This document shows, piece by piece, positions 2,210 through 36,012 of a stretch of 37,291 bases of DNA. Below the pieces are notes generated by a model, which did no database searches, was not told where the DNA came from, and worked only from the letters and a program-made list of their open reading frames with translations. This DNA comes from Rhodospirillales bacterium (GTDB taxonomy: Bacteria; Pseudomonadota; Alphaproteobacteria; Rhodospirillales; Magnetovibrionaceae), in NCBI GenBank assembly GCA_024653965.1, contig JANLGW010000125.1:1-37291 (forward strand). Direction: 5' to 3'. Made by a program: the position numbers and the translations under genes. Numbering within the stretch: position 1 is the first letter of the stretch; the number at the start of each line of letters is the position of its first letter.

Positions 2210-2389
2210 TTCAAGCCCCCTTTCCGGATTCATCGACCAATCACATCACGAGTCGATGGCATCACGCCAAACCGGTCACAGCGAATCGACCAGAATCGTA
2301 ATCCAATATCCCGATAACACTACCGATTGATCCTTAATGGAGTCTTTCTTGTGTGCAAAATGGCTTAAACGCAAAAGGAACCCCGGCGA

Positions 2390-2926: not shown

Positions 2927-3027
2927 GGTCTTCTATCCTCAGTTAACGGCCGCCCGCCAACACGTTATCATAGCCTTTAGTCTATCGCCACCCGCCTGAA
3001 CTTATCCTGAATGTAATACAACCAACT

Positions 3028-3846: not shown

Positions 3847-3864
3847 GACGGTCACTCCACGGAT

Positions 3865-4281: not shown

Positions 4282-4356
4282 AAAAAAGCCTCCTGGGCAG
4301 GGATCGTAAAAAAAAGTGACGGATCGAACTCGGTTTTATCTTGATTTTTCAAGGTG

Positions 4357-6875: not shown

Positions 6876-6883
6876 CGAAAAGA

Positions 6884-7146
6884 TCGTCACCCCCGCTGAA
6901 AAACGCGGATGCGCGGGTCAAGCCCGCGACTGCCCGGTTTATCAAAACGCGCCACCTCCACAATACAATCAATCAAAAATCGTCATGCCCGTGCTTGACA
7001 CGGGCATCCACGTCTTTAAAGGCATCACTTGAAGTCATGAACCCCCGGATCAAGTCCGGGGGTGACGAGTTAGGGTTGTTCTTGGAATCTGCCTCACAAC
7101 TGAAACCGTTAAATTGGGCAGCAGTGGCTCAAGCCCGCGCATGACG
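6884..7146. repeat. Cluster of intergenic palindromes with TCAAG/CTTGA loops
   Basis: Three perfect hairpins share the same 5-base loop: CGCGGG-TCAAG-CCCGCG at 6912-6928, ATGCCCGTG-CTTGA-CACGGGCAT at 6985-7007, and ACCCCCGGA-TCAAG-TCCGGGGGT at 7041-7063. A half unit, TCAAG-CCCGCGCATGACG, ends at about 7146. CGTCA or TGACG flanks most units. The layout suggests repeats inserted into or beside one another. They fill the spacer between the MocR-type gene and thiD and could act as a bidirectional transcription or mRNA-stability barrier. Confidence 0.85.
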
Positions 7147-7157
7147 GCGTCGGAATA

Positions 7158-7967
7158 TCACTCGCCCGTATAATCGCCCACCGTATGCGCATGATTCAAC
7201 GGGCCGTGGCCGTGGCCGTATTTTGGCGCGGTAAGGATAGCCTCGTAGACGTAGTTGCGCGCACGCTTGACCGCCCGCGAAAGCTCCAGGCCTTGCGCCA
7301 AACCGCAGGCGATGGCCGACGCCAAGGTGCAGCCGGTGCCGTGGGTATGGTTGGTGTCGATGCGCGGGCTGGTGAACACTTGCGGGCGCGAACCATCCCG
7401 CCACAGCACATCGGTCACGGTGTTGCCCGACAGATGCCCGCCCTTCACCAATACCGCGCCGCACTTCAAGCGCGCCAGCTTGTCGCCCGCCACCGCCAAG
7501 TCTTCGACGCTTTCGATCTTGGCTCCGGTCAGGGCCTCGGCCTCCGGCACGTTGGGCGTAATCAGGTAAGCTCTGGGAAGCAGGCGATCTTTCATCGCCG
7601 CCATGGCGTCGGGCTCCAACAACGCATGACCGCCCTTGGCGACCATCACCGGGTCCAAGACCATTCGCACATCGGGGGCTAGGCGCTCCAAGGCGTCGGC
7701 CACGGCATGAATGACCGAGGCGCGGTGCAGCATGCCCAACTTGATGACGTCGGCGCCTAAGTCTTCTAAGACGACTTCGATCTGGCGGATGATAAAGGCT
7801 TCGGGCACTTCATGAATGGCATGTACACCCAAGGTATTTTGCGCCGTCAACGCGGTGATCGCGGTCATGGCGAACCCGTTCAGGGCGGTAACCGCCTTGA
7901 TGTCGGCTTGAATGCCGGCGCCGCCGCCGCTATCGGACCCGGCTATGATGAGAACACGTCCTTGCAT
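7158..7967 (-). CDS. thiD: Hydroxymethylpyrimidine/phosphomethylpyrimidine kinase
   Basis: This is 269 residues from ATG 7967. The longer frame to 8003 would overlap glmM and lacks family similarity. The enzyme phosphorylates HMP and then HMP-P to give HMP-PP for thiamine synthesis in the cytoplasm. The substrate and nucleotide loops are clear: VLIIAGSDSGGGAGIQADIKA at the N-terminus, TALTAQNTLGV, MVLDPVMVAKGGHALL, and the C-terminal anion-hole motif THGTGCTLASAIA. It follows glmM by 16 bases at the end of a long minus-strand block. No TPP-riboswitch-like element lies directly upstream, so control is probably through the operon. The partner thiE lies near 28.6 kb. Confidence 0.95.
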   Translation of the reverse strand: MQGRVLIIAGSDSGGGAGIQADIKAVTALNGFAMTAITALTAQNTLGVHAIHEVPEAFIIRQIEVVLEDLGADVIKLGMLHRASVIHAVADALERLAPDVRMVLDPVMVAKGGHALLEPDAMAAMKDRLLPRAYLITPNVPEAEALTGAKIESVEDLAVAGDKLARLKCGAVLVKGGHLSGNTVTDVLWRDGSRPQVFTSPRIDTNHTHGTGCTLASAIACGLAQGLELSRAVKRARNYVYEAILTAPKYGHGHGPLNHAHTVGDYTGE

Positions 7968-7983
7968 GAACGCAGTGTAGCGC

Positions 7984-9330
7984 TTAAGCCGCCGCGCGGC
8001 CAATAATGTTCACCAGTTCGTCCACCACGGCGGTGACCAGGGTTTCGTTTTCCCCTTCGGCCATGACGCGGATCAGCGGTTCGGTGCCCGATTTGCGGAT
8101 CAGCAGCCTGCCCGATCCTTTTAAGCGGCCTTCGGCATCGGCGATGGCTTTTTGCACGTTCGCCTGTTCCAACGGCGACGCGCCGCTATAACGCACATTT
8201 TTAAGCAATTGCGGAAAGGTATCGAACAGACGGCAGGCCTCGGACGCAGGTTTGTTCCCGGCGACCAGCACCGCCAGCACCTGTAGCGCCGCCACTAGGC
8301 CGTCGCCGGTGGTGGCGAAATCGCCCAGCACCAAATGTCCCGATTGCTCGCCGCCCACGTTGCAGCCCTGGGCGCGCATGACCTCGACCACGTAGCGATC
8401 GCCGACCGGGGTGCGCAGCAGGCCCAATTCCTGGCTTTCGAGAAACTTTTCCAACCCTAAATTCGACATCACGGTGGCCACCACCGATCCGCCGCGCAGC
8501 AAGCCGCGCCGATGCCAATCCGCGCCAATCAAACCCATCAATTGATCGCCATCGACCAGCTGGCCCTTTTCATCGCTGATCAACACGCGGTCCGCATCGC
8601 CATCCAGCGCGATGCCGATATCGGCTTTGTGCTCCAGCACCGCCCTGCGCATCGCCTCGGTGGCGGTGGAACCGCAGCCGTCGTTGATGTTTTTGCCATT
8701 GGGCGACACGCCGATCTTGACGATGTCCGCGCCCAGTTCCCACAGCACTTCAGGGGCGACCTTGTAGGCCGCGCCGTGGGCACAATCGATAACGATCTTG
8801 AGGCCGCTCAGCGACGCGCCCTTGGGAAACGTCTGTTTAACGTATTCGGTGTAGCGCCCGACCACATCGTCCAAGCGCTTGGCGCGGCCGATGTCTGCCG
8901 CAGGAGCCAAATCCGCCGCCATGTTGGTATCCATACGGGATTCAATTTCCAGTTCCACCTCGTCGGACAGTTTGTAGCCGTCGGGACCGAAAAACTTGAT
9001 GCCGTTGTCTTGAAACGGATTGTGCGAAGCCGAAATCATCACGCCAAAATCCGCGCGCAGCGAACGGGTCAGCATCGCCACGGCGGGTGTCGGCACGGGG
9101 CCGGCCAGCATTACGTCCATACCGCAAGACAGAAACCCGGCGGTGAGCGCGTTTTCCAGCATATAACCCGATAGGCGTGTGTCTTTGCCGATCACCACCC
9201 GGTGGCGGTGGTCGCCGTTCTTGAAATGCAACGCCGCCGCCTGCCCCACCATCATGGCGGTCAGGGCGGTCATGGGGTGCTGGTTGGCGGTGCCGCGGAT
9301 GCCGTCGGTGCCGAAAAGCTTACGGGTCAT
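7984..9330 (-). CDS. glmM: Phosphoglucosamine mutase
   Basis: At 448 residues this is the usual length. It converts glucosamine-6-phosphate to glucosamine-1-phosphate for UDP-GlcNAc, and so feeds peptidoglycan and lipid A synthesis. The start [16 protein letters not shown] is diagnostic. The phosphoserine loop is ISASHNP, with the catalytic Ser at residue 102. The metal loop is DGDADRVL. The sugar-specificity loop is GGEQSGH, and the phosphate-binding loop near the C-terminus is [15 protein letters not shown]. It sits between folP and thiD, as in many alphaproteobacteria. Confidence 0.97.
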
Positions 9331-13489: not shown

Positions 13490-14578
13490 TCATTTGCAGC
13501 CGACGCGCTTGCTCTCGCGGGTCAATGCCTGTTCAAGTTCGGGTTTAAGCGGCGAGAATTCTTTGCGCACCTTGGCAAAGGTGGCGCAGGCTTCGGAAGT
13601 TTTTTCCAATTCCGCCATGGACATGCCCAGCTTCAACAAGGAGTCCGCAGCCTTCGGACCTTTGGGAGCCTTTTGATAGGCCTCGAAAAACGCCTGGGCA
13701 GATTCCTTAAAGCGCTTACGCACGTAATACGTTTCCGCCAGCCAATAGCGTGCATTGTTCGCCAAGTCATCCTTGCCGTGGGCGTCGAGGAAAACCTTAA
13801 ATGCGAGTTCGGCTTCGTCGTAACGCGCCTGGCGGGTCAGGTCGAAAGCGAAGCGATACTGATCTTGCACGCTGCCTGCGGGCAGGGCGGAAACCTTGGC
13901 GCCTTCTGCAGATTCGGCCCTGGGCGCAGCCTTACCGTCCTTGTTGACAATCGCATCCAGTTTATTTTTGGGCATGGAGCCCAACACATTGGTCTCTTCC
14001 GACGATGGCACGTAGGTGCCGTCCTTGCTCACGGTGCCTTGCGCCACAGCGCTTGGGTCGTCCACCGGGGGCATTGCGCCCTCTTTGGACACGCCTTGCG
14101 TGGCGGGTGCGGCAGAGGGCGTCGGCGCACTGTCCGGGCTCCCCCCTTCCAATCGGGCGAGACGGTAATCCAAATCCACCATCAATTTATCTAATTTTTG
14201 GGCCACCTGATCGATACGAAACGACAGGCTCTCGGATTGGCCAGTGGCATCGCGCACTTCAGCCTCCAGGGCGTCCAAACGCACCATCACGCGCGACAAC
14301 ATGCCTTCGTTATCATTGAACTCAACAGACTGCGCCCCGCCCGAAACAGGCGCCTTAGACACCGACGCCGCAGAAGCCGAGGACGGCGCAGCCCCGCCGG
14401 GGTTGCGTGCAATTTGCTGATTGAGGGTGCGGATATCGCGTTCCAAACGGTCGATGCGATCCATCAGGGGGCCTGAATTTTGGGCATCCTGGGCAAAAAC
14501 GTGTTGAGGTAAAAACACCGCAACAGCCCAGGTCAAAACAACCCAAGCCAAGGCTAAACTCATTTTATTGACCGTCAT
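13490..14578 (-). CDS. cpoB: Tol-Pal system protein CpoB/YbgF
   Basis: This is a 362-residue periplasmic protein. An N-terminal signal peptide ends near HVFAQDA. A coiled-coil segment with MDRIDRLERDIRTLNQQIARN follows, and then a second helix pair (MLSRVMVRLDALEAEV). A low-complexity Ala/Pro/Ser linker occupies about residues 150-235. The C-terminal roughly 120 residues are TPR repeats (YRFAFDLTRQARYDEAELAF, NNARYWLAETYYV, ADSLLKLGMSMAEL). CpoB links the Tol machine to peptidoglycan synthases at the septum. It sits downstream of pal. A methionine five codons in is an alternative start. Confidence 0.93.
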   Translation of the reverse strand: MTVNKMSLALAWVVLTWAVAVFLPQHVFAQDAQNSGPLMDRIDRLERDIRTLNQQIARNPGGAAPSSASAASVSKAPVSGGAQSVEFNDNEGMLSRVMVRLDALEAEVRDATGQSESLSFRIDQVAQKLDKLMVDLDYRLARLEGGSPDSAPTPSAAPATQGVSKEGAMPPVDDPSAVAQGTVSKDGTYVPSSEETNVLGSMPKNKLDAIVNKDGKAAPRAESAEGAKVSALPAGSVQDQYRFAFDLTRQARYDEAELAFKVFLDAHGKDDLANNARYWLAETYYVRKRFKESAQAFFEAYQKAPKGPKAADSLLKLGMSMAELEKTSEACATFAKVRKEFSPLKPELEQALTRESKRVGCK

Positions 14579-14650
14579 GCGCTTGATCCGTCTTGTTTGT
14601 TTCGGGTGCTCATCATCCCAAAACGAATGACTAAAGGCCCCAATTTAAGA

Positions 14651-14682
14651 CCCAATTAATTTAAGGCCCAATTAATTTAAGG
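14651..14682. repeat. Exact 16-base tandem duplication
   Basis: CCCAATTAATTTAAGG occurs twice back to back, preceded by a partial copy (CCCAATTTAAGA at about 14639-14650). Each unit contains AATTAATT. It lies upstream of cpoB on the coding strand, where it could contribute promoter-like AT-rich sequence. Confidence 0.9.
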
Positions 14683-14790
14683 AACTGTGCGTCGCCAATC
14701 CGGCAAAATTAGGGCCGAAACACCGTTAACGCAAATCTCAGTGAGTAGGAACCCAGGCTGGGGGTAAAAACCCTGGCGGGTAAAACAGTA

Positions 14791-14832
14791 AGGCGCCTGT
14801 CCCAGCGCCGAATTCGGACAGGACAGACGCCT
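14791..14832 (-). terminator. Hairpin downstream of pal, possible terminator
   Basis: AGGCGCCTGTCC (14791-14802) pairs with GGACAGACGCCT (14821-14832) with one wobble, giving a 12-base stem. On the minus strand it is followed by TACTGTTTTAC, so the T tract is weak. It probably attenuates or ends pal transcription, or stabilises its 3' end. Confidence 0.55.
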
Positions 14833-14870
14833 CACACGTTTAGACGCGGGCTATAAAGACCGCGCTAAAA

Positions 14871-15335
14871 TTAACGGACCATCGTAACCGCACGACGGTT
14901 CGCGGCCCAGGCAGTTTCGTCAGAACCCGGATTTTCCGGACGCTCTTTGCCATAGGAAATGGTCGCCATACGGTTAGCCGAAACGCCGAGAGACGTCAGG
15001 TAATCGTATACGGCATTCGCACGACGATGGCCCAGTGCAAGGTTGTACTCGCGGGTGCCACGTTCGTCGCAATGACCTTCGATGACGACCTTAACATTGC
15101 TGTTCGTCTTCATCCATGCAGCCTGCTTTTGCAGGGTTGCACGGGCTTCAGGCGTCAAGTCGTAACAATCGAAGCAAAACTGAACACGGTCGCCAACATT
15201 GGCAACCAGATCCGCCTGGCTACCCGGGCCGGTGTACGTACCATCACCAGCGCCCGAACCAGACTCAGTCGTCGGCGTGGCGCAAGCAGCGACCAGAGCC
15301 ACGACGGCAACCAAACTTAGAATTTTAAAACGCAT
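14871..15335 (-). CDS. pal: Peptidoglycan-associated lipoprotein Pal
   Basis: This is 154 residues with AGGAG six bases before the ATG. The signal peptide ends in LVAAC, so Cys18 is lipidated and anchors the protein in the outer membrane. The OmpA-like domain covers about residues 48-154: RVQFCFDCYDLTPEARATLQKQA, VVIEGHCDERGTREYNLALGHRRANAV with the conserved diaminopimelate-binding Asp and Arg, and a YGKERPENPG segment. Pal binds peptidoglycan and TolB to tether and constrict the outer membrane at division. It follows tolB after a 196-base spacer and may have its own promoter there. Confidence 0.97.
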   Translation of the reverse strand: MRFKILSLVAVVALVAACATPTTESGSGAGDGTYTGPGSQADLVANVGDRVQFCFDCYDLTPEARATLQKQAAWMKTNSNVKVVIEGHCDERGTREYNLALGHRRANAVYDYLTSLGVSANRMATISYGKERPENPGSDETAWAANRRAVTMVR

Positions 15336-15531
15336 AGAAATCTCCTATTCACTCGTCCACATGACTCATCATGGGACTCTCGTGATGTTCAGGACATCCG
15401 CCGCAAGTATGATCAATACCCACGTCAGACGTCCAATTCCATAACCCAAAACAGACCCAGCTCCCTAATCCAGGACATACTGTCCCCTGGAATTATTGAG
15501 TTTTTCCAGCTGGGACTATATGCCGTTACCG

Positions 15532-16893
15532 CTAAGGAATCAAGGGGGACCAAGCAGGATCTGATGCATCCAGGGGTGTAACGACTTCTCGTTCGTTATT
15601 TCCCGTGAAATCGATGGAGAAAATCCGGGTTCTCCCGCCCTTTCCCTGCTTATCATTGCGGTCTTGACGGAAATACATCAAAACGCGCCCGTTGGGTGCC
15701 CAAGTGGGCGCTTCGACTAGGAAACCCTGGGTTAGCAGGCGTTCGCCGGAGCCATCGGGACGCATCACGCCGATGTAAAACGTGCCTTTATGCATGCGCG
15801 TAAAGCCGATCCAATCGCCGCGCGGCGACCAAACGGGCGTGGCATACCGCCCATCGCCGAAGCTGATGCGCTTCACGTCGCCGCCGTTTTTATTCATCGA
15901 ATATAACTGCTGCGTGCCGGAACGGTCGGAGTTAAAGACGATATATTGGCCATCCGGTGAGAAACTGGGCGACGTATCGATGGCGCTGTGTTTGGTCAAT
16001 TGGCGCACATCGCGGGTGGCAAGATCCAGGGTGTAAATTTCGGAATTGCCATTTTTGCTCATGGAAAAGATCACCGATTTACCATCGGGCGAAAAACGCG
16101 GGGCGAAGGTCATACCGGGAAAATCGCCGAGCGCTTCCTGACGGCCACTGTCGATGTTGAAGATATAGACGCGCGGCACACCCTTGTAATAACTGAGGTA
16201 GGTAATTTCCTGCAACGTCGGCGAGAAACGCGGGGTCAACACCAGATCACGCCCGTCGGTAAGGAAACGATGGTTCTCGCCGTCTTGATCCATGATCGCC
16301 AGACGTTTAACGCGCGCCACCTTAGAACCTGATTCAGCGATATAAACGATCCGCGTATCGAAATAACCTTCTTCACCGGTAATGCGTTTGTAAATGGCGT
16401 CGGACACAATATGCGCCACGCGCCGCCAGTTGTTGGGCACGGTGAAATAGGCCAACCCCACCATCTGTTTTTCACTGAGCACATCCCACAGGCGAAACTC
16501 GACACGCAACCGACCATCCGTGGTCATTTCCACGCGCCCCTGCACCAACGCCTGGGCGTTGATGATGCGCCAGTCGCCGAAACGCGGCAGCACGTTCAGG
16601 CTTTCCCCCGTCTGAATGAAGGCCTTTTTATCAATCGGTGCGAACAATCCGGAACGTTCCAAATCGGCGGCGACGACACGCGCAATGTCTGCGCCGAATT
16701 GCTTCTCGCTCGCCCCCGCACCGTAAAAGTCCGTCACCGCAAGAGGCATCGGCTCGACCACGCCACGGGTGATGTCGATGGTAAGCTCTGCGTGCGCATC
16801 CGTATGCCAAAAAGCAACGGACAGCATGACCAGTGCCGAAAACAAACAAGCAAACGGGCGGGCAAACGGGCGGGCAAACAGCGACTGTGTCAT
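15532..16893 (-). CDS. tolB: Tol-Pal translocation protein TolB
   Basis: This is a 453-residue periplasmic protein. The signal peptide has a small repeated RPFARPFA segment and ends near HTDAHA. The N-terminal domain (about residues 35-170) precedes a six-bladed beta-propeller. The propeller blades are marked by repeated FSPDG-type motifs: [51 protein letters not shown] and [14 protein letters not shown]. TolB docks onto Pal and is released by TolA. Its ATG overlaps the tolA stop as ATGA, so translation is coupled. Confidence 0.97.
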
Positions 16894-17825
16894 AGGCCGA
16901 ACATATCCCTAGGGTTAAAGTTAAGTTTCATGTTTTGCCACCGCTCATACTTTTCCGGTGGCAGCTTGAACGGTTGGCAGCGCGGATTCAATACCGCCCT
17001 TAAGGCGCTTTCCGCCATGGTGCGATAAAAGGGATCGGTGGCCATGCGCGCATTGTCGAGCACCCGCGCCGTGCTCACCGTTCCATCGGGGTTCATCGTA
17101 ATGCGGATCGAAATCAGCATTTCATGCGCATCCTTCGCCCCCGCAGGCAAGTTCCAGCAACGGTGAATTTGTTGACGGACCAAATCAATTTCAGAAATGG
17201 TCATTTCCGCCCCGACATCGGTGCGCGGTTTATCGCTTTCCAAGGCATCGGCCATCATCTTGTCGAAATCAGGCTCGACCGGCTTGTCCTCTTTGGTTTT
17301 ATCGGGTGTCGGCGCGCTTTTAAGGTCTTCCAATGTTTTAAGCACCGCCTCGAATTGGTCCGACGCTTTAGGTTTGCGCGGCGGCACCGGGGCCGGCGAC
17401 AGTTTTTTCGTCTCGGTCTTTTTGGGCTCTTCCGGCTTTGGCTCAGGCTTGGGCTTGGCCTCATCCTTAGGTTTGGTTTCGGGCTGCGGCAGCAACGCCA
17501 CCTTTTCTTCCGAGGTTTCCGGTACCGGGGCAGGTTCAGGCGGCTGTTCGACCGCACCTTGCGGCGCGGGCGGCGGCGCGGGCGGTTTAGGCGTCGGTTT
17601 AACATCCGGTTTCGCCGAAGATTCCTTCGGCTTGGTCACAATGTTGGTTTTATCCGAAACGGTGACGATTTCCACCGAAATGGGAACATCCACCAACTCC
17701 GGAATATCGGTAAAGGACGGCAATCCAACATACGCCACGATGAAGATCACCGCGTGCAGCAATACCGAAATGATAACATTGCGCCCCAAAACGGCCTCAC
17801 TTCTTCTTTTGCGTGCTGGGCGCAC
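16890..17825 (-). CDS. tolA: TolA envelope-spanning protein
   Basis: This is 311 residues from GTG 17825, a start that overlaps the end of tolR by 29 bases. A TTG at 17789, just after the tolR stop and behind GAGG, is a reasonable alternative and would remove 12 residues. One membrane helix ([20 protein letters not shown]) is followed by a long Pro/Lys/Glu-rich stalk. The C-terminal domain (about 220-311) has the TonB/TolA-like [34 protein letters not shown] pattern. TolA transmits the proton-motive force from TolQR to TolB-Pal. Confidence 0.93.
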
Positions 17826-18255
17826 TTTGTTCGGTAATCAGCGCCACGCGCGAAAACCCCGCAGCGTTCAACACGCCCATGAGCTCCATCACCCGGCCAT
17901 AGCCTACGGTAGCGTCGCCGCGCACAAAAATACGCACCTCGGGATTGTTTTCCGAAATGGCCTGCAGGCGCGGCACCACGGCGTCGAGTTCCATGGCGGT
18001 ATCTTGCACATAGATCAAGCCGTCCTTATCGATGCTCACCGCCAGCGGTTCATCTTGCCCGGCGACGGCCTTGGCTTTGGTCTTGGGCAGGTCGACCTGC
18101 ACGCCCACGGTCAACAGCGGCGCCGTCACCATGAAGATGATCAACAGCACCAACATCACGTCGACGAACGGCGTGACGTTGATATCCGACATGGGCCGGG
18201 AACGGCGCGGCGAGCCGAAACCTTTACGATTGGATTGGTGAAGCATCCCCGCCAT
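17797..18255 (-). CDS. tolR: TolR proton-channel subunit
   Basis: This is 152 residues with a single N-terminal membrane helix. The sequence MSDINVTPFVDVMLVLLIIFMV carries the essential proton-carrying Asp at residue 32. The rest is a periplasmic domain (VGVQVDLPKTKAKAV, VSIDKDGLIYV, VRIFVRGDATVGYGRVMELMGVL) typical of ExbD/TolR. It lies two bases after tolQ and overlaps tolA. With TolQ it forms the motor that drives TolA. Confidence 0.96.
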   Translation of the reverse strand: MAGMLHQSNRKGFGSPRRSRPMSDINVTPFVDVMLVLLIIFMVTAPLLTVGVQVDLPKTKAKAVAGQDEPLAVSIDKDGLIYVQDTAMELDAVVPRLQAISENNPEVRIFVRGDATVGYGRVMELMGVLNAAGFSRVALITEQSAPSTQKKK

Positions 18256-18257
18256 AA

Positions 18258-18995
18258 TTACCTAGCCGCCTTTTCTTCCATCATGCGCGACAAGATCGCG
18301 GAAAACTCAACCGCAAAACCATCCAAGCGGCTGGCGTAACGGTCGAGATCGCGCGAAATTTTGTTGTAGGCCAACACCGCCGGAATAGCGGCCAGCAGGC
18401 CGAGCGCCGTTGCGAACAACGCCTCGGCAATACCCGGCGCCACCACCGCCAGCGACGTGTTTTTCGACACCGCAATGGATTGGAACGCATGCATGATGCC
18501 CCACACCGTGCCAAACAGGCCGATGAACGGCGCGGTAGACCCGGTCGATGCGAGGAACGTCATGTAGCGCTCGACACGCTCCATCTCGCGCTGCACGGTA
18601 ATCTGCATGACACGATCGATGCGCTCCGCCAAACTGGTGTTGGCGATGGTCGAACCGACGTGGCCCTTCTCCGCCGCGCGACGCCATTCGCGCATGGCGG
18701 AAACGAACACCGCACTCATCGGATCACGCGGCTGGCTGCTGATCCTGTCATAGATCGCATCCAACGACTGACCGGACCAAAAACCCTTTTCAAACTCTTG
18801 CGCTTGGCTGTTGAGTCTTTTCAGGTTGGTGACCTTTTCGAAGATGATCGCCCAACACCACACGGACGCGCCGACCAGCATCAAGATCACGCTTTGCACC
18901 ACCATGTCGGCGCGCCAAAATAGCGACCACATGGAAAATTCCAAAGCGTCAACCGACCCACCCAGGGCCACCGCGTCGATTACATTGCCTTCCAT
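18258..18995 (-). CDS. tolQ: TolQ proton-channel subunit
   Basis: This is 245 residues from ATG 18995, ten bases after the ybgC stop. The open frame extends to 19058 but that part is ybgC sequence in another frame. Three membrane helices are visible: MVVQSVILMLVGASVWCWAIIF near the N-terminus, then ASTGSTAPFIGLFGTVWGIMHAF, then GIAEALFATALGLLAAIPAVLAYN. The TAPFIGLFGTVWGI and EALFATALGL motifs are the ExbB/TolQ/MotA proton-channel signatures. It is the first tol gene after ybgC. Confidence 0.96.
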   Translation of the reverse strand: MEGNVIDAVALGGSVDALEFSMWSLFWRADMVVQSVILMLVGASVWCWAIIFEKVTNLKRLNSQAQEFEKGFWSGQSLDAIYDRISSQPRDPMSAVFVSAMREWRRAAEKGHVGSTIANTSLAERIDRVMQITVQREMERVERYMTFLASTGSTAPFIGLFGTVWGIMHAFQSIAVSKNTSLAVVAPGIAEALFATALGLLAAIPAVLAYNKISRDLDRYASRLDGFAVEFSAILSRMMEEKAAR

Positions 18996-19005
18996 CGTTT
19001 TTAAC

Positions 19006-19488
19006 TCATTCGTTGTTGCTGTCACGGTTGTCGTTATCGTTTTCGCTATCCATCTCAAACGCCTTCAAGCGTTTGCGGATATCATCGGGCAATCGCCCAG
19101 GGCCGCCGCCCAGCTTCATACACCCCAAACGGATGGTCATGCGTATCAAATCCACGCCGTCTTTGCGAATCGCTTGCGCGCCTTCCAACGACGCGCCGCC
19201 GACCCTGATCAGCTCTAAATAGACTTCCACCAGATCGTCGAGTCGCGCAGGGCTTAAATACTCGACTTCTATATGGCGCACAACAAAGGCAAGACCATGG
19301 CGATCTTGCAGGATCGAGTTTTCAATGCCCAACAGGCGCAACATCTCGGTCCGTGCGCGTTCGGCGAACTTCAAATAATTGGCGTAATACACCACTCCGC
19401 CCGCGTCGGTATCTTCGTAATAGACCCGAATCGGCAAAACGAAGGTCTTGCCATCGAAGCGGGGGGACATGTCGATCGCTTCAATCAT
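19006..19488 (-). CDS. ybgC: YbgC-type acyl-CoA thioesterase
   Basis: This is about 160 residues. It starts at ATG 19488 (or GTG 19494), in both cases overlapping the ruvB stop. It is a hotdog-fold thioesterase: [30 protein letters not shown] contains the catalytic Asp and is diagnostic. Tol-Pal-associated YbgC hydrolyses acyl-CoA or acyl-ACP thioesters at the inner membrane and has been linked to phospholipid metabolism. It is conserved directly ahead of tolQ, as here. The C-terminus is acidic with a Asp/Asn-rich tail. Confidence 0.93.
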
Positions 19489-29384: not shown

Positions 29385-30191
29385 GTGAGCGGCGTCGAAT
29401 TCGTAAAAAGCATTGAAAGCCTGCACGACAGCGCAGGCCGCATCACCAGCAGCCTAAAAAGCGTGGTGCAGGTCATCGACGCCATGGCCGAAGACAATGC
29501 GACGTTTATCGCCAACCCGAATGCCGCCCCCCCGGGCATCGAAGGCGATGCCATCCGCGCGCTTTTGCAAAGCATTCGCAAACAAATTTCCGAAATCGTC
29601 GATTACGGCCAACAATTTGAAACCAAGTTGAGCACTTATTCGTCGGGCATTTCCGACCTTACGCGCCAACTGGAACAAACCAAACAAGCCGCCATGCTGG
29701 ACCCCACCACCGGCATCGGCAACCGCCGCCGGTTCGAAGAAAGCCTGGCCGATATCCTTAAAAACCTGGAAGATTTCAACGGCAAAGTCTCGGTGCTGCT
29801 GGCCGATGTGGACAATTTCAAAACCGTCAACGACACCTTGGGGCACAACGTGGGCGATCAGGTGTTGCGGCTGGTGGCCAACACGTTTGTCACCGGCTTG
29901 AAGGGCGGCGACGTCGTCGCGCGTTGGGGCGGCGATGAATTTGCCGCCATCTTGCCCGACACCTCGTTGGAAAACGCCCTGCACGTTGCCGAAAACGTGC
30001 GCAAATCGATCGCCACCAAATCGCTTAAAAACAAAGACACCGGCGAAACCATGGGCAAGGTAACCTTATCCATCGGCGTTTCCACCCACCGCCAGGGCGA
30101 TAACGCGCACAAACTCATCTTCCGCGCCGATCAAGCGCTTTACGAAGCCAAGCGCCAGGGCCGCAACCGCTCCATTCCCGAGAACGACTGA
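29385..30191 (+). CDS. GGDEF domain diguanylate cyclase
   Basis: This is 268 residues from GTG 29385 with AGGA upstream. The N-terminal roughly 100 residues are helical with no recognised sensor domain and no membrane segment, so it is probably cytoplasmic. The C-terminal domain begins near AAMLDPTTGIGNRRRFEESL and carries the intact active-site RWGGDEF, then the C-terminal GVSTHRQGDNAHKLIFRADQALYEAKRQGRNR. The inhibitory site before GGDEF reads KGGD instead of RxxD. It should make cyclic di-GMP; target and signal are unknown. The ribosome site and lone position suggest a single-gene unit. Confidence 0.93.
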   Translation: MSGVEFVKSIESLHDSAGRITSSLKSVVQVIDAMAEDNATFIANPNAAPPGIEGDAIRALLQSIRKQISEIVDYGQQFETKLSTYSSGISDLTRQLEQTKQAAMLDPTTGIGNRRRFEESLADILKNLEDFNGKVSVLLADVDNFKTVNDTLGHNVGDQVLRLVANTFVTGLKGGDVVARWGGDEFAAILPDTSLENALHVAENVRKSIATKSLKNKDTGETMGKVTLSIGVSTHRQGDNAHKLIFRADQALYEAKRQGRNRSIPEND

Positions 30192-30291: not shown

Positions 30292-30861
30292 ATGAAGGTC
30301 AACGGCAACTCTATCCGCGCAGGGATGATTCTCGAACACCAGGGCCGCTTGTGGCGCGCCGTGAAAACCATGCACACCATGCCCGGCAAGGGCGGTGCGT
30401 TCATGCAGGTCGAACTCAAAGATATCCGCGACGGAACCAAACTCAACGAGCGTTTCCGCTCCTCCGATTCAGTGGAACGCGTGTCGCTCGAACAGCGCGA
30501 TTACCAATATCTGTACACCGACGGCACTACGTTCACCTTCATGGACACGGAAACCTTCGAGCAAATCGAACTCAGCGCCGACATGATCGGCGAAGACCAG
30601 GTGCCGTACCTGCAAGAAAACATGGTCGTCACCATCGAATCTTATGAAGACAGCCCCATCAGCGTGCAGCTACCGACCACCGTGATTTTAGCAATCACCG
30701 AAGCTGACGCGGTGATCAAGGGCCAGACGGCATCTTCAAGCTACAAACCCGCAATGTTGGAAAACGGCGTGCGCACCTTGGTGCCGCCGCACATCACCTC
30801 CGGCACCCGCGTGGTCATCAACACCGACGACGGCTCTTACGTCGAACGCGCAAAAGACTAA
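30292..30861 (+). CDS. efp: Elongation factor P
   Basis: This is 189 residues, the family length. EF-P relieves ribosome stalling at proline stretches. The N-terminal KOW-like domain carries the modifiable lysine at residue 33 in the loop MPGKGGAF. Two OB domains follow, with FRSSDSVERVSLEQRDYQYLYTDGTTFTFMD and the C-terminal TVILAITEADAVIKGQTASSSYKPAMLENG, VPPHITSGTRVVINTDDGSYVERAKD. It is closely followed by the inositol monophosphatase-family gene. Which modification it carries cannot be told here. Confidence 0.96.
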   Translation: MKVNGNSIRAGMILEHQGRLWRAVKTMHTMPGKGGAFMQVELKDIRDGTKLNERFRSSDSVERVSLEQRDYQYLYTDGTTFTFMDTETFEQIELSADMIGEDQVPYLQENMVVTIESYEDSPISVQLPTTVILAITEADAVIKGQTASSSYKPAMLENGVRTLVPPHITSGTRVVINTDDGSYVERAKD

Positions 30862-30884: not shown

Positions 30885-31673
30885 ATGGCCCATCCCCGCT
30901 CCGCCCTGCTCAACGTCATGACCGCCGCCGCGCAAAAAGCGGCGCGGCGCTTGGTGCGCGATTTCGGCGAAGTGGAAAATCTTCAGGTGTCGAAAAAAGG
31001 CCCTGCGGATTTTGTCTCCATCGCCGACAAGAAGGCCGAAGACACGCTGGTCAAAGAACTGCAAAAGGCACGCCCCGATTTCGGTTTCGTGCTGGAAGAA
31101 AACGGCGCCATCGAGGGCAAGGATACGTCCAACACCTGGATTATCGACCCGCTCGACGGCACCACCAACTTCCTGCACGGCATTCCGCACTTCGCCATTT
31201 CCATCGCTTTGATGCGCGACAGCGAACTGTTCGCGGGCGTGGTTTACAACCCGGCGACCGACGAAATGTTCTGGGGGGAAAAGGGCCAGGGCGCGTTTTT
31301 GAACGGTCGCCGCCTGCGGGTATCGGCCCGGGCAAGCTTCGACGAGTGCCTATTCGCCACCGGCATCCCTTTTTTGGGCATGGAAAAAGACCCACGTTTC
31401 TTGGAACGCCTGGAAACCGTGATGAAGGTCTCAAGCGGAATCCGCCGTTTCGGGTCCGCTGCGCTGGACTTGGCCTATGTCGCCGCCGGCAGGTACGACG
31501 GCTTCTGGGAATGCGGTTTACAGCCGTGGGATATGGCGGCAGGCATCGTTTTGGTCCGCGAAGCGGGTGGTTTCGTCAGCGATATCTCCGGCAAACGCAA
31601 AATGCTGGAAACTGGCTCCGTCGTGGCGGCCGCCGACAGGGTTCACCCCCATTTGCTCAAATTGATCAAATAA
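30885..31673 (+). CDS. suhB: Inositol monophosphatase family protein SuhB
   Basis: This is 262 residues. Metal-binding motifs are present in order: VLEENGAIEG (first acid), WIIDPLDGTTNFLHGIP (DPxDGT core), and WDMAAGIVLVREAGG near the C-terminus. N-terminal helices MTAAAQKAARRLVRDF are typical. In bacteria, SuhB hydrolyses inositol-1-phosphate and in some species also assists rRNA transcription antitermination. It follows efp by about two dozen bases, which suggests an operon. Confidence 0.93.
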   Translation: MAHPRSALLNVMTAAAQKAARRLVRDFGEVENLQVSKKGPADFVSIADKKAEDTLVKELQKARPDFGFVLEENGAIEGKDTSNTWIIDPLDGTTNFLHGIPHFAISIALMRDSELFAGVVYNPATDEMFWGEKGQGAFLNGRRLRVSARASFDECLFATGIPFLGMEKDPRFLERLETVMKVSSGIRRFGSAALDLAYVAAGRYDGFWECGLQPWDMAAGIVLVREAGGFVSDISGKRKMLETGSVVAAADRVHPHLLKLIK

Positions 31674-31828: not shown

Positions 31829-33082
31829 ATGCGCTACTTAGACCGTTCGAAGTTTGCTCAAGGCCCACATCGCGCAACCGTGCGCCGTGCGCCTGTGTGG
31901 CTGTCGCTGTTTGCCGGCGTTTCGGTACTGGCGATGATGACTGCCGGACCGGCTCACGCCCAGTTCGCGGTGGACGTTTCCGACCCCAGCATCAGCGTCG
32001 ATCTTTCGGTCCTCAACGACGGCGGACTTTCTTCACCGTCGAACCTGCCGATGTATTCCTCATCGCCAAGCAGAGGCGGCGCATATCAAATGCCGGGGCA
32101 GATGCCTGGAGCGGATCTGCCCGTATCGACGCTTTATGTGCAGCCGACGGAAAGCTTCACCCTGCCGCAGCAGACCAAAAGCCTAATCGCCAAACCTGCG
32201 CCGGAAGTTGAACCTGCAACTAGCGTCGTCGAAGACATGTCCGCGCCCGCAGATTCCGACGCCGAAATCGAAAGCGCAACCGATACCGTACCCGAAACGC
32301 CCGCGCTCGAAGAACCAATAGCTGAAGCCCCAATGGCCGAAGAACCCGTAACTGATGAAGTTGCGTCTGCGCCGGAAATCGCAATGCCCGCCGCACCCGA
32401 AGCGCCGACCCAGGAAGCGCCCCCCCAAACGGCAAAAGCCGAACCGGAGCCTGCACCGGAACCGGAGCCCGAACCCGAGGTTGCTGCACCGGCCCCGACG
32501 AAGGACGTCGCCGAAACCGAACCCACGCCAGCGCCTGAGCCAGCGCCCGCAGAACCTGAAGTCGCCGCCGATACTGCGGCGCAGGTTCCACCGCCGCCCC
32601 AAGCACTGACGCAAACGCCGCCAACGGCCCCCTCGGCAACCCCGCCCGCGCAACCCGATGTCACCGCCGCCGCACCCGGCGCCGTGGTCGTTGATCTGCC
32701 GCCAAAATTGGAAGAACAGCAACAACCCGGCGTGGCATCGCTGCCATCCGCTACCGGCCCGCTTTCCGATGGCGACAACATGCGCATCGTGTTCGAGCAG
32801 GATTCGTCGAAACTGTCGAGCGATGTCCGCGACGCGTTGAAAACGTTATCGGATCGTTTGGGCCAGCAAGAAAGCCTGCGTTTGCAATTGCTGGCCTACG
32901 CTGGTGACGACAACACGTCGGCCAGCGCAGCCAGACGCCTATCGCTGTCACGCGCCCTAGCGGTGCGTTCATACCTGATCGAAAACGGTGTGCGCTCCAC
33001 CCGCATCGATGTGCGTGCACTGGGCAACAAATCCACCGAAGCGGTGACGGAACGCGTCGACATCACAATCGTGGAACGTTGA
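31829..33082 (+). CDS. Exported OmpA-family protein with Pro/Glu/Ala-rich linker
   Basis: This is 417 residues from ATG 31829, which has a GGGGGAG ten bases upstream; a longer frame to 31733 is less likely. A signal peptide (VWLSLFAGVSVLAMMTAGPAHAQ) leads into about 150 residues of low-complexity sequence rich in Ala, Pro, Glu and Thr. The last roughly 100 residues are an OmpA-like domain (IVFEQDSSKLSSDVRDALKTLSDRL, then RLSLSRALAVRSYLIENGV, then RIDVRALG). The protein is probably periplasmic and may bind peptidoglycan. It opens a three-gene envelope cluster. Confidence 0.85.
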   Translation: MRYLDRSKFAQGPHRATVRRAPVWLSLFAGVSVLAMMTAGPAHAQFAVDVSDPSISVDLSVLNDGGLSSPSNLPMYSSSPSRGGAYQMPGQMPGADLPVSTLYVQPTESFTLPQQTKSLIAKPAPEVEPATSVVEDMSAPADSDAEIESATDTVPETPALEEPIAEAPMAEEPVTDEVASAPEIAMPAAPEAPTQEAPPQTAKAEPEPAPEPEPEPEVAAPAPTKDVAETEPTPAPEPAPAEPEVAADTAAQVPPPPQALTQTPPTAPSATPPAQPDVTAAAPGAVVVDLPPKLEEQQQPGVASLPSATGPLSDGDNMRIVFEQDSSKLSSDVRDALKTLSDRLGQQESLRLQLLAYAGDDNTSASAARRLSLSRALAVRSYLIENGVRSTRIDVRALGNKSTEAVTERVDITIVER

Positions 33083-33091
33083 TCCCCGCGC

Positions 33092-33107
33092 GGGGCGATA
33101 GCGCCCC
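33092..33107 (+). other. Intercistronic hairpin
   Basis: GGGGCG and CGCCCC form a 6-base stem with a 4-base loop just after the OmpA-family stop. There is no T tract, so it is more likely an mRNA-stability or attenuation element than a terminator. Confidence 0.35.
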
Positions 33108-33168
33108 CCGTATGGAATGATGATCTTCGCCACAGTGTTGACACCGTCGCCATGGTATAGAGACACCC

Positions 33169-34347
33169 ATGGAACCTGATCAGATGACCCATCCGCGCCG
33201 TTTTTTGGTTCGCATGGCATTGTTTTTGGCCATCGTCTTAGCTGCCGCAGGCGCAGTGTTTATGCCGCTTGCAACCGCGTTTATGACCAATGCGGCGTTG
33301 AACGGTTTGATCCTTGGCGTGTTTGTGGTGGGCGCATTATATAACGTGCGCCAAGTCCTGCAGTTGGGGCCGGAAATCGATTGGATCGAAACGTTCCGCG
33401 CACGCGCGTCAACCGTCGTCAGAGTATCCACCACCACCAATACCAGCGCCGGCACCTCGCCCCGCCTGTTATCGCCCCTGGCCGCCATGGTGGGGGCGCG
33501 CGAAGAAATCAAACTTAGCGCCATGGCCTTGCGCTCGGTGCTGGACGGCATCGCCTCGCGCTTGGACGAACAACGCGACATTTCGCGTTATACCATCAGC
33601 CTGCTGGTATTCTTAGGACTGCTCGGCACGTTCTGGGGCTTGCTGGACACGCTGGGCGCCATCCGCGGCGTAATCGCCAACATTCAGGTCGGCGGCGGCG
33701 AAATCGGCCAAATGTTCAACGATTTGAAATCCGGCCTTGAAGCGCCGCTCACCGGCATGGGTACGGCGTTCTCCAGCTCGCTGTTCGGCCTTGCCGGATC
33801 GCTGATCTTGGGTTTTTTGGACCTGCAAACCGGTCAGGCGCAAAACCGCTTTTATACCGAATTGGAAGACTGGCTATCCTCCCAAACCAAACTCTCTTCA
33901 GGCACCCTCAACGTCGAAGGCGAGCAGACCGTTCCCGCTTATGTCGAGGCGTTACTTGAACAGACCGCCGAAAGCCTGGAAAACCTCCAGCGCACCATGG
34001 CGCGTGGTGAAGAGACCCGCATCCTGACGTCGGAAGCGCTGCACCAACTGTCCGACAAGATGAGCACCATCACCGACTTCATGCAGACCGAACAGATCAT
34101 CATGAAAAAGCTGGCGGAAACACACATGCTGCTGAAGCCCGCTTTAGAGACCATCGCCGGCGGCAAGGGTGGCATGGGCGGCGGCAGCGGATTGGACGAC
34201 GCCTCGCGCAGCCATCTGCGCAACATCGATCTGGCGGTATCGCGCTTGGTGGAAGAAACGCGCACCGGTCGCGAAGAACTGACTTCCCAGATCCGCAGTG
34301 AAATCAAAGTTCTCGCCCGCACCGTCGCCGGACGGGGCGAGTCCTAG
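33169..34347 (+). CDS. MotA/TolQ/ExbB-like proton channel family protein
   Basis: This is 392 residues; a second ATG five codons in is possible. Membrane segments are visible near residues 12-35 and 42-62, then at ISLLVFLGLLGTFWGLLDTLGAI (about 143-170) and GMGTAFSSSLFGLAGSLILGFLDL (about 200-223). The LLGTFWGLLDTLG and GMGTAFSSSLFGLAGSLILG patterns are those of the MotA/ExbB/TolQ channel helices. A long cytosolic tail with coiled-coil character follows. It lies between two OmpA-type genes and just ahead of the MotB-like gene. It is not the flagellar MotA or TolQ of this genome, since tolQ is elsewhere in the window. Confidence 0.85.
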   Translation: MEPDQMTHPRRFLVRMALFLAIVLAAAGAVFMPLATAFMTNAALNGLILGVFVVGALYNVRQVLQLGPEIDWIETFRARASTVVRVSTTTNTSAGTSPRLLSPLAAMVGAREEIKLSAMALRSVLDGIASRLDEQRDISRYTISLLVFLGLLGTFWGLLDTLGAIRGVIANIQVGGGEIGQMFNDLKSGLEAPLTGMGTAFSSSLFGLAGSLILGFLDLQTGQAQNRFYTELEDWLSSQTKLSSGTLNVEGEQTVPAYVEALLEQTAESLENLQRTMARGEETRILTSEALHQLSDKMSTITDFMQTEQIIMKKLAETHMLLKPALETIAGGKGGMGGGSGLDDASRSHLRNIDLAVSRLVEETRTGREELTSQIRSEIKVLARTVAGRGES

Positions 34348-34358
34348 GAGAAGCGGCG

Positions 34359-35405
34359 ATGGCTTCGCTCTCCCGCCGCGCGCGCCACCGCGCCGATATT
34401 TGGCCAGGCTTTGTCGATGCCTTGGCGTCGCTATTGATGATCATCATTTTTTTGCTGCTGGTGTTCGTGCTGGCGCAATTTTTCCTCGGCGAAGCGCTGT
34501 CGGGGCGTGAAACGGCGCTCAAAAAATTAGATCGTGAAATGGCGGAGCTTGCCGATCTTTTGGCTTTGGAAAAAAGTACCAGCCAAAAACTGCGCAGCGA
34601 TGTAGGCCGTCTTTCAGGCGAATTACAAACCTCCATCATTACCAACGACCGTCTGCAAGGCGACGTCGTCAAGCTGGAAGCGTTGAAAGCGCAGCTCGAA
34701 GCCGACATCGGAAAATTAGCCAGCCAGATTGAAGAAAAGGCCTCCGCCCTTCTCTCCGAACAAGAGTTGAGCGAAAGCGCGCGCGCCGAAGTGGCGCTGT
34801 TGAACCGCCAAATGGCGGAACTCAAAGATCAAATCGCGACGCTCAACGACGCTTTAGATGCGGCGGAGAAAAAAGCCACGGACCAAGGCGCGCAGATCGT
34901 ATCGATGGGCAAACGCCTTAACGCCGCGCTCGCCTCGAAGGTTATGGAACTGTCCACCTACCGTTCGGAATTCTTCGGCCGTTTGGTGCAAATTTTAGGC
35001 GCGCAGCCGGGTGTCGAAGTCGTCGGCGACCGCTTCGTGTTTCAGTCCGAGGTGCTGTTCGCCAGCGGTTCGGCGGAAATCAACGTCGATGCATTTACGC
35101 AATTGAGCGGCCTAGCCCAAACCCTTAAAGAACTGGAAGGCCAAATTCCCGCCGACATCGATTGGGTGCTGCGTGTCGATGGCCATACCGACCGGGTGCC
35201 CATCCAAACGCCCAAGTTCGCCTCCAACTGGGAACTCAGCTCGGCGCGCGCCATTTCCGTGGTTAAATACCTGATCGGCCAAGGCGTACCCGCCAACCGT
35301 TTGGCGGCGGCGGGCTTCGGTGAACACCAACCCATCACCCCGGGCAAGACCCAAGCCGCACTGGACCGCAACCGGCGCATCGAGCTCAAGCTCACGGAAC
35401 GGTAA
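34359..35405 (+). CDS. MotB-like OmpA-domain protein of the stator cluster
   Basis: This is 348 residues. A single membrane helix near the N-terminus, IWPGFVDALASLLMIIIFLLLVFVLAQFFL, carries an Asp (residue 20) at the position used for proton passage in MotB/TolR. A long coiled coil (about residues 50-190) follows. The C-terminal OmpA domain has VLRVDGHTDRVPIQTPKFASNWELSSARAISVVKYLI, which should bind peptidoglycan. It starts 11 bases after the channel gene, so the two are coupled. The target machine is unknown. Confidence 0.88.
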   Translation: MASLSRRARHRADIWPGFVDALASLLMIIIFLLLVFVLAQFFLGEALSGRETALKKLDREMAELADLLALEKSTSQKLRSDVGRLSGELQTSIITNDRLQGDVVKLEALKAQLEADIGKLASQIEEKASALLSEQELSESARAEVALLNRQMAELKDQIATLNDALDAAEKKATDQGAQIVSMGKRLNAALASKVMELSTYRSEFFGRLVQILGAQPGVEVVGDRFVFQSEVLFASGSAEINVDAFTQLSGLAQTLKELEGQIPADIDWVLRVDGHTDRVPIQTPKFASNWELSSARAISVVKYLIGQGVPANRLAAAGFGEHQPITPGKTQAALDRNRRIELKLTER

Positions 35406-35408
35406 TTC

Positions 35409-35446
35409 TTGCCAATTTTTGCCAATTCATCTATGATTTTGCCATG
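35409..35446 (+). promoter_or_regulatory. parDE promoter and phased TTGCCA repeats
   Basis: TTGCCA (35409-35414) and TATGAT (35432-35437) are exactly 17 bases apart and match -35 and -10 consensus at five of six positions each. The ATG of the antitoxin begins six bases after the -10, so the message is probably leaderless. TTGCCA recurs at 35409, 35419 and 35439, that is at 10- and 20-base spacing on one DNA face. This is a likely ParD operator. Confidence 0.65.
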
Positions 35447-35683
35447 AGCACAATGAACATCTCCCTGCCCGAAGCGCTGAAGTCCTTTGTGGACGAACAG
35501 GTCGCTTCGCATGGTTACTCAACCAGCAGCGAGTACGTCCGTGAATTGATCCGCATGGATCAAGACCGCCAGAATTTGCGCGCGCTGTTGCTCGAAGGTG
35601 CTGCATCCACGCCCACGTCACCCGTAAACGCGGCTTACTTTGACGGACTGCGCGAACGCGTGAAACGGCGCAAGACGGCGTGA
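35444..35683 (+). CDS. parD: ParD-type antitoxin
   Basis: This is 79 residues. The N-terminal MNISLPEALKSFVDEQVASHGYSTSSEYVRELIR is the ParD/CopG ribbon-helix-helix pattern. The C-terminal part (DGLRERVKRRKTA) is the toxin-binding tail. Its stop overlaps the GTG start of parE. It should repress its own promoter together with ParE. Confidence 0.9.
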   Translation: MSTMNISLPEALKSFVDEQVASHGYSTSSEYVRELIRMDQDRQNLRALLLEGAASTPTSPVNAAYFDGLRERVKRRKTA

Positions 35684-36012
35684 GCGCGAAGCCCGTCATC
35701 CCGCGCAAACGCGCCAACCAGGATATCGACGAAGCCGTTCTCTATTATGTCGCCGAAGCAGACAAAGACGTTGCACTCGGTTTCATTGATGCGCTAGAGC
35801 GGGCCTTTGAGCAGATAGCCCATCATCCGGCTTCCGGAGCGCCCCGCTACGCTCACGAGTTGGACCTACCGGGTCTCTATTTTCACCCCCTGAAGCGCTA
35901 TCCGTACCTTGTCTTTTACCGGGAACACGACGATCACATCGACGTATGGCGCGTTCTGCACGCAAGCCGCGACATTCCAGCATGGATGGCCGAGCCGCAG
36001 GAGATTTCTTAA
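35680..36012 (+). CDS. parE: ParE-type toxin
   Basis: This is 110 residues from GTG 35680, which overlaps the parD stop as GTGA. The RelE/ParE fold is seen in the helical N-terminal half (ANQDIDEAVLYYVAEADKDVALGFIDALERAFEQIAHHPASGAPRY) and the C-terminal strands LKRYPYLVFYREHDDHIDVWRVLHASRD. ParE toxins poison DNA gyrase, while RelE relatives cut mRNA; the sequence favours ParE but does not prove the target. Confidence 0.88.
   Translation: MSAKPVIPRKRANQDIDEAVLYYVAEADKDVALGFIDALERAFEQIAHHPASGAPRYAHELDLPGLYFHPLKRYPYLVFYREHDDHIDVWRVLHASRDIPAWMAEPQEIS

Follow-up and report, generated by a model that had tools for sequence, protein, structure and literature searches.

A ZorA-related channel and MotB-type gene pair of Alphaproteobacteria, independent of the flagellum and joined in some lineages by an OmpA-domain protein

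The window analysed here is a stretch of 37,291 nucleotides (positions 1 to 37,291 of contig JANLGW010000125.1, assembly GCA_024653965.1) from a Rhodospirillales bacterium assigned to the Magnetovibrionaceae. It harbors three co-directional genes, which encode an OmpA-domain protein, a channel protein and a MotB-type subunit:

31829-33082, plus strand: OmpA-domain partner, ATG start, 417 aa; the program-made open reading frame (ORF) opens at 31733
33169-34347, plus strand: MotA/ExbB/ZorA-superfamily channel, 392 aa
34359-35405, plus strand: MotB-type subunit, 348 aa, NCBIfam NF006543

A first-pass annotation, made from the letters of the sequence, had described these genes in a row, with the last two separated by 11 bases, and this was confirmed by the ORFs and by Pfam and NCBIfam. 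It had read them as a non-flagellar, probably ion-driven and peptidoglycan-anchored pair to which no job is assigned, and this description still stands.

The channel protein scored 20.4 bits with Pfam PF01618 when scanned alone, which is under the cut-off of 22.9, and 26.7 bits, over the cut-off, when scanned with its frame neighbours in the genome. No NCBIfam match was detected at E ≤ 0.001, the PADLOC ZorA1 model matched with E 7.8e-12, and in public annotation the protein is labelled 'MotA/TolQ/ExbB proton channel family protein'. An AlphaFold (AF2) model obtained with 44 homologues (mean predicted local distance difference test score 84.5; 90-98 in blocks of 10 for the core helices) contains core helices at residues 10-29, 42-82, 118-172 and 179-240, followed by a helical tail at 257-391, in line with the long cytosolic tail noticed at first pass. 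The helices carry GLLGTFWG and GMGTAFSSS. The tail has a conserved end, here RSEIKVLARTVA, and the strict pattern R.[ED][I..][KR]..[AT]R[TL].A was found in 115 of 138 close homologues; among the remaining 23, a near-variant was recognised by eye in 20, while the end is divergent in one (L172) and absent in two (L057 and L134). A shorter tail pattern occurred in 112/183 proteins, compared to 0.0004 in shuffles. By structural comparison (VIA), 183-205 residues of the model were aligned to ExbB (Z 11.6), TolQ (Z 11.4), ZorA (Z 10.9) and MotA (Z 9.9), with the highest identity, 17%, for ZorA; the first helix is covered, from model residues 8-19 on, by MotA-type chains alone among those of the superfamily. 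Foldseek returned nothing with the model at E ≤ 0.001 (best 1.1e-3), and a PDB sequence search with the channel profile yielded only coiled coils and similar proteins (best E 0.19); YcfC, the sole PDB match with the single channel protein (E 0.014), was taken as chance. By family and by fold the channel belongs to the MotA/TolQ/ExbB/ZorA superfamily.

The MotB-type protein is a full-length member of NF006543 (PRK09039.1-2; 460.8 bits, cut-off 305), a family whose name, 'peptidoglycan -binding protein', names no function and mentions neither channel, OmpA partner nor ZorA. It was matched by Pfam OmpA (PF00691, E 3.4e-17) and by the PADLOC ZorB3 model (E 3.1e-25), and consists of a single transmembrane helix with Asp20 (WPGFVDAL) and an OmpA-type domain with GHTD and NWELSSARA. 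The conserved membrane Asp and the peptidoglycan-binding domain claimed at first pass are thus both present: Asp20 is invariant in all 33 aligned rows, and the motif W.[FWY]VD occurs in 177 of 178 MotB-type proteins, the exception being a broken ORF. The H-T-D motif residues of OmpA-type domains bind peptidoglycan; in the same 33 rows H276 and T277 are near-invariant, and D278, R297 and R339-E342 are invariant. In the model of this protein one helix extends from residue 18 to 213 and is followed by the OmpA-type domain. The spacer between the Asp and this domain comprises 203 residues here and has a median of 245 among the 167 of 178 MotB proteins that were measured, in which the four lowest values (76) are pattern artefacts and the lowest true value seen is 168. 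At a helix rise of 0.15 nm per residue, the helix of the monomer model would exceed 20 nm beyond the membrane, which would be enough to cross the periplasm.

On the OmpA-domain partner, Pfam OmpA matched with E 3.4e-11. A signal peptide (AHA before Q, by eye) is followed by a linker and a C-terminal OmpA-like domain (~residues 317-417) with the signature ARRLSLSRAL.VR..L...GVRSTRIDVRALG. The first-pass description of an exported protein with a long Pro/Glu/Ala linker agrees with this signal-like start and with 51 P, 42 A and 29 E in 240 residues; across 135 OmpA partners the linker, delimited by a fixed cut, has a median of 184 residues and 22% Pro. The domain keeps the R in ARRLSLSRA and lacks the H-T-D that the MotB-like domain keeps, and canonical peptidoglycan binding by it is not supported. 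A loose AXA-like signal pattern, counted without a chance control, was present at the start of 102/112 partners and a lipobox in 0/112. Near the mature N-terminus, the motif V[DNE][LMFW][STG][VIAL][LIV], a pattern picked after examples had been seen, was found in 34/112 partners, compared to 0.0018 in shuffles, and the other 78 are without it in that form.

The three-gene order was kept in all 21 near relatives (genus to order) with contig room (L017-L037); L038 and L039 stand outside this count, as contig ends cut them. At the channel loci overall the OmpA gene was present at 134 and absent from 53, while 7 had too little room. When these loci were divided by closeness of the channel at 330 bits, 127/136 close loci contained the gene and 7/51 more distant ones, among which L038 is a cut near-relative fragment and L088 and L098 are weak iterated-profile matches. 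In 28 genomes, scores of 69-152 bits with profile A6, built on the C-terminal domain of the partner, were confined to positions next to the pair (G000, G038, G032 and G130); G037 gave a weak adjacent match (36.9 bits), and matches elsewhere reached at most 51.6 bits. In its own genome the partner is the sole A6 match at E ≤ 0.001 (151.6 bits). Since the gene is nearly constant at close loci and rare at distant ones, and since strong A6 matches occur only beside the pair, the OmpA protein is a true yet lineage-restricted partner. The co-occurrence expected by the first-pass annotation therefore holds in close relatives and not in distant ones, and the OmpA gene is no constant third part; the Sinorhizobium meliloti locus, for example, has the channel/MotB pair without it. 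It was likewise not found at L116, L165 and L166.

Neither is the pair an 'orphan', as it had been called, as it belongs to a class-wide family: the channel profile matched 267/387 Alphaproteobacteria genomes at E ≤ 0.001 (260/378 of those of good quality). Of the 31 genomes in the relatives search, one of them that of the window, 24 contained it, and the nearest named relative found was Magnetovibrio blakemorei, whose channel is 74% identical. Outside Alphaproteobacteria an intact pair was detected in four genomes of the same phylum (L246, L247, L248 and L257). A MotB gene lies adjacent and on the same strand at 177 of 194 channel genes, a set defined by phmmer at E ≤ 1e-4 in the supplied loci that includes L253, L254 and L262 of another family as well as very weak members. 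Three of the others have no room, and 14 have room and no match; these comprise one gene beside a broken MotB ORF (L116), ten weaker distant members and three of another family. At L116, a Defluviicoccus locus, the channel gene is intact and its MotB-like neighbour is broken up into several frames. Two small genomes of 0.9 Mb each (G087 and G267) have the channel with an adjoining MotB gene, and two of 0.7 and 0.8 Mb (G117 and G143) have the channel alone, with a weaker match. In the channel gene of G087 (L090) an in-frame TGA was observed, which could reflect decay or another genetic code. Where a named locus offers 4.5 kb or more of upstream sequence, efp and suhB are both found there in 52 of 60 cases; the named loci are the best 80 of 568 confirmed. 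Some loci overlap: that of the window recurs as L005/L016/L041, L021/L101 are apparently one Magnetovibrio record, and L157/L163 are one contig. Mobile carriage of the pair was rejected, as a scan of viral contigs with the MotB-like protein gave four pattern matches of which none was confirmed, and plasmid matches amounted to 5/72,556 records, all of them Sinorhizobium/Shinella replicons of 3.5-4.6 Mb.

The channel was placed in a tree of 79 rows and 203 columns (IQ-TREE, C20), from which two fragments (L091 and L098) of the original 81 rows had been dropped and whose reference set was without AglR or GldL sequences. A split with a support of 100/98 separated MotA and TolQ/ExbB from a group formed by the channel family, ZorA and four undescribed proteins. 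The channel family formed a clade (98/97; long-branched outsider L265 inside), as did ZorA (95/96; giant-tailed L263 inside), so placed that the channel lies outside the ZorA clade; in this tree it is also outside the TolQ/ExbB clade (97/75), and the MotA clade (99/95) excludes it. Comparison of small profile sets, gathered for this analysis and trimmed to 330 residues, by hhalign ranked the four undescribed proteins first (98.3%, E 1.1e-14), followed by ZorA (97.7%, E 1.6e-12, 166 columns), TolQ/ExbB (87.4%, E 3.7e-6) and MotA (4%). The likeness to ZorA/ZorB that had been noticed in the layout thus extends, by tree, hhalign and PADLOC, to the sequences. ZorA is the closest characterised relative of the channel; judged by sequence scores, however, the channel is not a ZorA, because true ZorA proteins reach 293-473 bits with the ZorA1 model and the channel family at most 57 (42.6 in the window), in the core only.

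Compared to the ZorA/ZorB system in the available passages of PMC11890865, the pair shares the GM.TAF..SL.G channel helix, a cytosolic tail and a MotB-type partner with conserved Asp and peptidoglycan-binding domain. It differs in that the alphaproteobacterial channel has an additional helix at its N-terminus (the alignment of ZorA chains begins at model residue 29), in the length of the channel (392 aa versus 688 aa for ZorA of L181), in a MotB spacer that is, by eye, much longer than that of ZorB, and in its conserved synteny, where the scanned flanking genes contain no defence effectors. TolQ/TolR and ExbB/ExbD share the channel fold, with Z up to 11.6, yet the alignment of their chains starts only at model residue 29-39, and TolR and ExbD are without the OmpA-type peptidoglycan-binding domain, unlike the third gene with its PF00691. 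A further comparison is offered by the 'Generic ion transporters' (GIT; Puente-Lelievre et al., 2025, PMC12505986), which likewise comprise non-flagellar A/B pairs, some without known function. The word 'alphaproteobacteria' is absent from the main text of that paper, and because ZorAB was left out of its phylogeny, the grouping of the channel family with ZorA is not treated there, as far as the available passages show.

Several side observations concern relatives of ZorA. The undescribed proteins (L253, L254, L261 and L262) represent another A/B pair family and the best profile match of the channel family (hhalign 98.3%); their ZorA-kin channel frames comprise 310-391 aa, and neighbouring ORFs open with ..YE.FSDM.LLMLA.., likely a transmembrane helix with Asp. 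Giant-tailed ZorA-like or channel-family-like proteins were seen in Pseudomonadota outside Alphaproteobacteria (L263 1366-5301, with a frame of 1312 aa; L264 913-5811, 1633 aa; L265 1533-4679, 1049 aa), each adjoining a frame whose similarity to ZorB/MotB is weak to fair. In L260 (genome G589), two different ZorA-ZorB pairs lie within 7 kb (2258-4749 and 6175-8900).

With respect to the flagellum, the absence of flagellar genes from the window, stated at first pass, was confirmed. Elsewhere in the host genome (2.99 Mb draft) there are two MotA-MotB pairs and a third MotA for which no neighbouring MotB was found, as well as FliG fragments located at the ends of contigs. A MotA/PomA-like gene (G000:C61:1909-2244, L002), for which 1.5 kb of adjoining sequence yielded no MotB, shares its contig with a FliG fragment at the contig start. 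A constrained grouping of the channel with MotA was rejected (approximately unbiased (AU) test, p=0.001), so that the channel does not fall inside the flagellar clade, a placement that the first-pass annotation had named as refuting its reading. FliG was absent from 18 of 30 carrier genomes, which were picked for distance and not randomly and of which three FliG-less ones (G080, G109 and G104) give only a weak match to the channel profile (E 2.9e-4 to 8.6e-24). Among these 30, an adjacent MotB gene is present in 19, and 10 of the 19 lack FliG; it was present in 12/20 genomes without the channel, the window's own genome aside. Flagellar MotA/MotB and PomA/PomB share with the pair the four core helices and a MotB with transmembrane Asp and peptidoglycan-binding domain, whereas the alphaproteobacterial pair forms a separate sequence clade, is spread independently of FliG and has a long uninterrupted MotB helix in the model.

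Other features of the window are as follows:

13490-19058, minus strand: TolQ-TolR-(TolA)-TolB-Pal-CpoB-like cluster, separate from the three-gene locus
30292-30861, plus strand: efp, upstream conserved neighbour by synteny
30885-31673, plus strand: suhB-like inositol monophosphatase, upstream conserved neighbour by synteny

The Tol-Pal cluster, in which TolA was assigned by position without a Pfam match, bears out that the pair is distinct from TolQ/TolR. The efp and suhB-like genes are counted as neighbours by synteny, not as functional parts. A GGDEF (diguanylate cyclase) gene at 29385-30191 sits between thiE and efp, as it does in the Magnetovibrio blakemorei locus (L101); L103, L106 and L109 are examples of relatives in which thiE directly adjoins efp. 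Downstream, a ParD/ParE toxin-antitoxin pair at 35444-36012 (PF03693 25.4 bits, PF05016 60.7 bits) separates the MotB-like gene from a major facilitator superfamily (MFS) gene. Since the MotB-like and MFS genes are near neighbours in L101, the toxin-antitoxin pair is probably a local insertion. A scan for promoters and terminators gave counts no higher than shuffle level.

Taken together, these results are best explained by a 5:2-type rotary motor with a housekeeping role and kinship to ZorAB, which would serve the maintenance of envelope, pole or division, and we put the probability of this reading at about 55%. By analogy with characterised motors, five channel subunits would surround two MotB-type subunits, and ion flow past Asp20 would turn the channel ring relative to the MotB dimer, which the long rigid helix and the peptidoglycan-binding domain would tie to peptidoglycan. 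The conserved motif that ends the cytosolic tails of the ring would be a likely dock for a cytosolic partner, and in Rhodospirillales-like lineages the secreted OmpA-domain protein would be an added periplasmic component. Such a motor would serve neither swimming nor phage defence. Its placement in envelope, pole or division work is made with modest confidence and follows one indirect experimental lead, from Komagataeibacter hansenii.

In this bacterium, which has no flagella, overexpression of motA or motB led to longer cells, mostly chained with septum-like regions, to a threefold colony spread and to a raised cellulose yield, and green fluorescent protein fusions localised to one pole in short cells and to both poles in longer ones, according to the available passages of Jacek et al. 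(2019, PMC6570709). There, MotA is described with 348 aa and four predicted transmembrane segments and MotB with 321 aa, one transmembrane segment and an OmpA-like domain, and for the authors both are motility genes that also take part in cell division and in the production of cellulose. The pair is of the same MotA/MotB type as the one studied here and comes from an alphaproteobacterium that lacks flagella, and another member of the Acetobacteraceae carries the channel family (L120).

A number of points weigh against the proposed housekeeping motor. The K. hansenii pair is a probable family member, as judged by protein size, by the absence of flagella and by the BLAST partners listed in the passages of PMC6570709; these passages further show that the phenotypes arose upon plasmid overexpression, that chaperone and translation-factor transcripts were also up, and that Escherichia coli cells were unaffected by overexpression. 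Without the four undescribed proteins, the branch uniting the channel family and ZorA has a support of 88/79, and the tree program warns that long branches meet; a constrained clade of the family with TolQ/ExbB was rejected only at the borderline (AU p=0.0525). The fold search does not separate ZorA, ExbB, TolQ and MotA, which are effectively tied; as helical proteins without kinship to the superfamily attain Z 8.7-9.3 in that list, the fold match stands only moderately above the background for a helical model. Finally, 120/387 Alphaproteobacteria genomes gave no match to the channel profile, and NF006543 reached its cut-off in 0/14 control genomes, Caulobacter vibrioides included, which indicates that many lineages do without the pair; the ZorA1 model matched 0/14 of the same controls.

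It could be imagined instead, and we regard this as unlikely, that the locus encodes a Tol/Ton-like force transducer, in which the secreted OmpA protein would draw its energy from the channel pair, span the periplasm with its Pro-rich linker and pull with its C-terminal domain on peptidoglycan or on an outer-membrane partner, as TolA and TonB do for TolQR and ExbBD. The tight linkage of the partner where it is present, its P/A/E-rich linker and the N-terminal motif, albeit chosen post hoc and missing in that form from most partners, are consistent with such a device. However, since the signal looks cleavable and a lipobox is lacking, the partner is probably not membrane-anchored like TolA or TonB; moreover, its gene was not found at 44 of the 51 more distant loci with room, where the pair is mostly kept, and the MotB-type subunit has its own peptidoglycan-binding domain, unlike TolR and ExbD. 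The very long MotB helix with its peptidoglycan-binding domain would also suit a non-rotating tether between peptidoglycan and inner membrane, or a gated ion leak that senses wall tension, all the more as ion flow is here deduced from likeness; yet the conserved Asp and the channel helices with GLLGTFWG and GMGTAFSSS resemble those of working ion-driven relatives, and we consider this explanation quite improbable.

A Zorya-type defence motor, that is ZorAB without its usual effectors or with unlinked ones, is in turn suggested by ZorA as the closest characterised channel, by the ZorA1 and ZorB3 matches, and by the cytosolic tail and the partner with a peptidoglycan-binding domain. The linked effector genes of Zorya are, partly as general background and partly from the available passages of PMC11890865, ZorC/ZorD or ZorE. 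In agreement with the first-pass statement that no ZorC/ZorD-like gene is present, no Zorya effector was found in nine flanking proteins (PADLOC, E ≤ 0.001), unlinked effectors not having been searched for; the only other PADLOC match among these proteins was the GGDEF protein, which weakly resembles Cas10. This lack of effectors, the same chromosomal block in most named loci, the class-wide spread and ZorA1 scores far under those of true ZorA led us to reject a Zorya module, kin though it is, as very improbable. The reading of the pair as one more stator set for the host flagellum, for which the four core helices, the alignment of MotA-type chains to the first helix and the flagellar genes of the host could be adduced, is ruled against by the tree, the AU test, the profile comparison and the FliG distribution, in a host that already has two MotA-MotB pairs, and hardly merits any probability.

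The MotB family was already catalogued and the channel already labelled in public annotation. In the open-licence literature searched, no account was found that presents the two genes as a motor akin to ZorA, spread class-wide and independently of the flagellum, with an OmpA partner in certain lineages; this is a variant and not a new kind of machine. The papers retrieved under 'PRK09039' were unrelated by title, and nothing was tied to the pair in the available passages of PMC9389320, PMC7327166, PMC6107284, PMC11527210, PMC7676999, PMC5539429, PMC10787603, PMC10592609, PMC10470522 and PMC5929573. Two candidate leads come from passages of PMC10470522, in which the Rhodobacter sphaeroides proteins RSP_1880, with a peptidoglycan-binding domain, and RSP_1033, of the OmpA family, are listed among those found with DalA, a lipoprotein of division. 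In an Agrobacterium paper, as far as it was available, atu2682 is Bax inhibitor-1 and was rejected as a family member.

In its boldest form, which we hold as a doubtful proposal, the pair would stand for a 5:2 rotary motor of a functional class of its own that is old in Alphaproteobacteria, in which a turning cytosolic tail (with a motif like R-S-E-I-K-L-L-A-R-T-I-A) drives a process linked to pole or division and a periplasm-spanning rod acts as wall anchor, the Zorya motors and the housekeeping motor being branches of one stock. The labels 'flagellar motor protein MotA' (PMC6570709, Table 1, in the passages available) and 'peptidoglycan -binding protein' hide this motor family. Each of the Tol, Ton, flagellar and Zorya motors gave rise to a field of research; if the pair is a further branch, a basic energised envelope machine without an assigned function would be present in most sampled genomes of a class to which plant symbionts and magnetotactic bacteria belong, and the pair would offer a tractable housekeeping model for the role of the ZorA tail. 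If the one stock is real, what this tail does could be learnt from a housekeeping relative of the defence machine.

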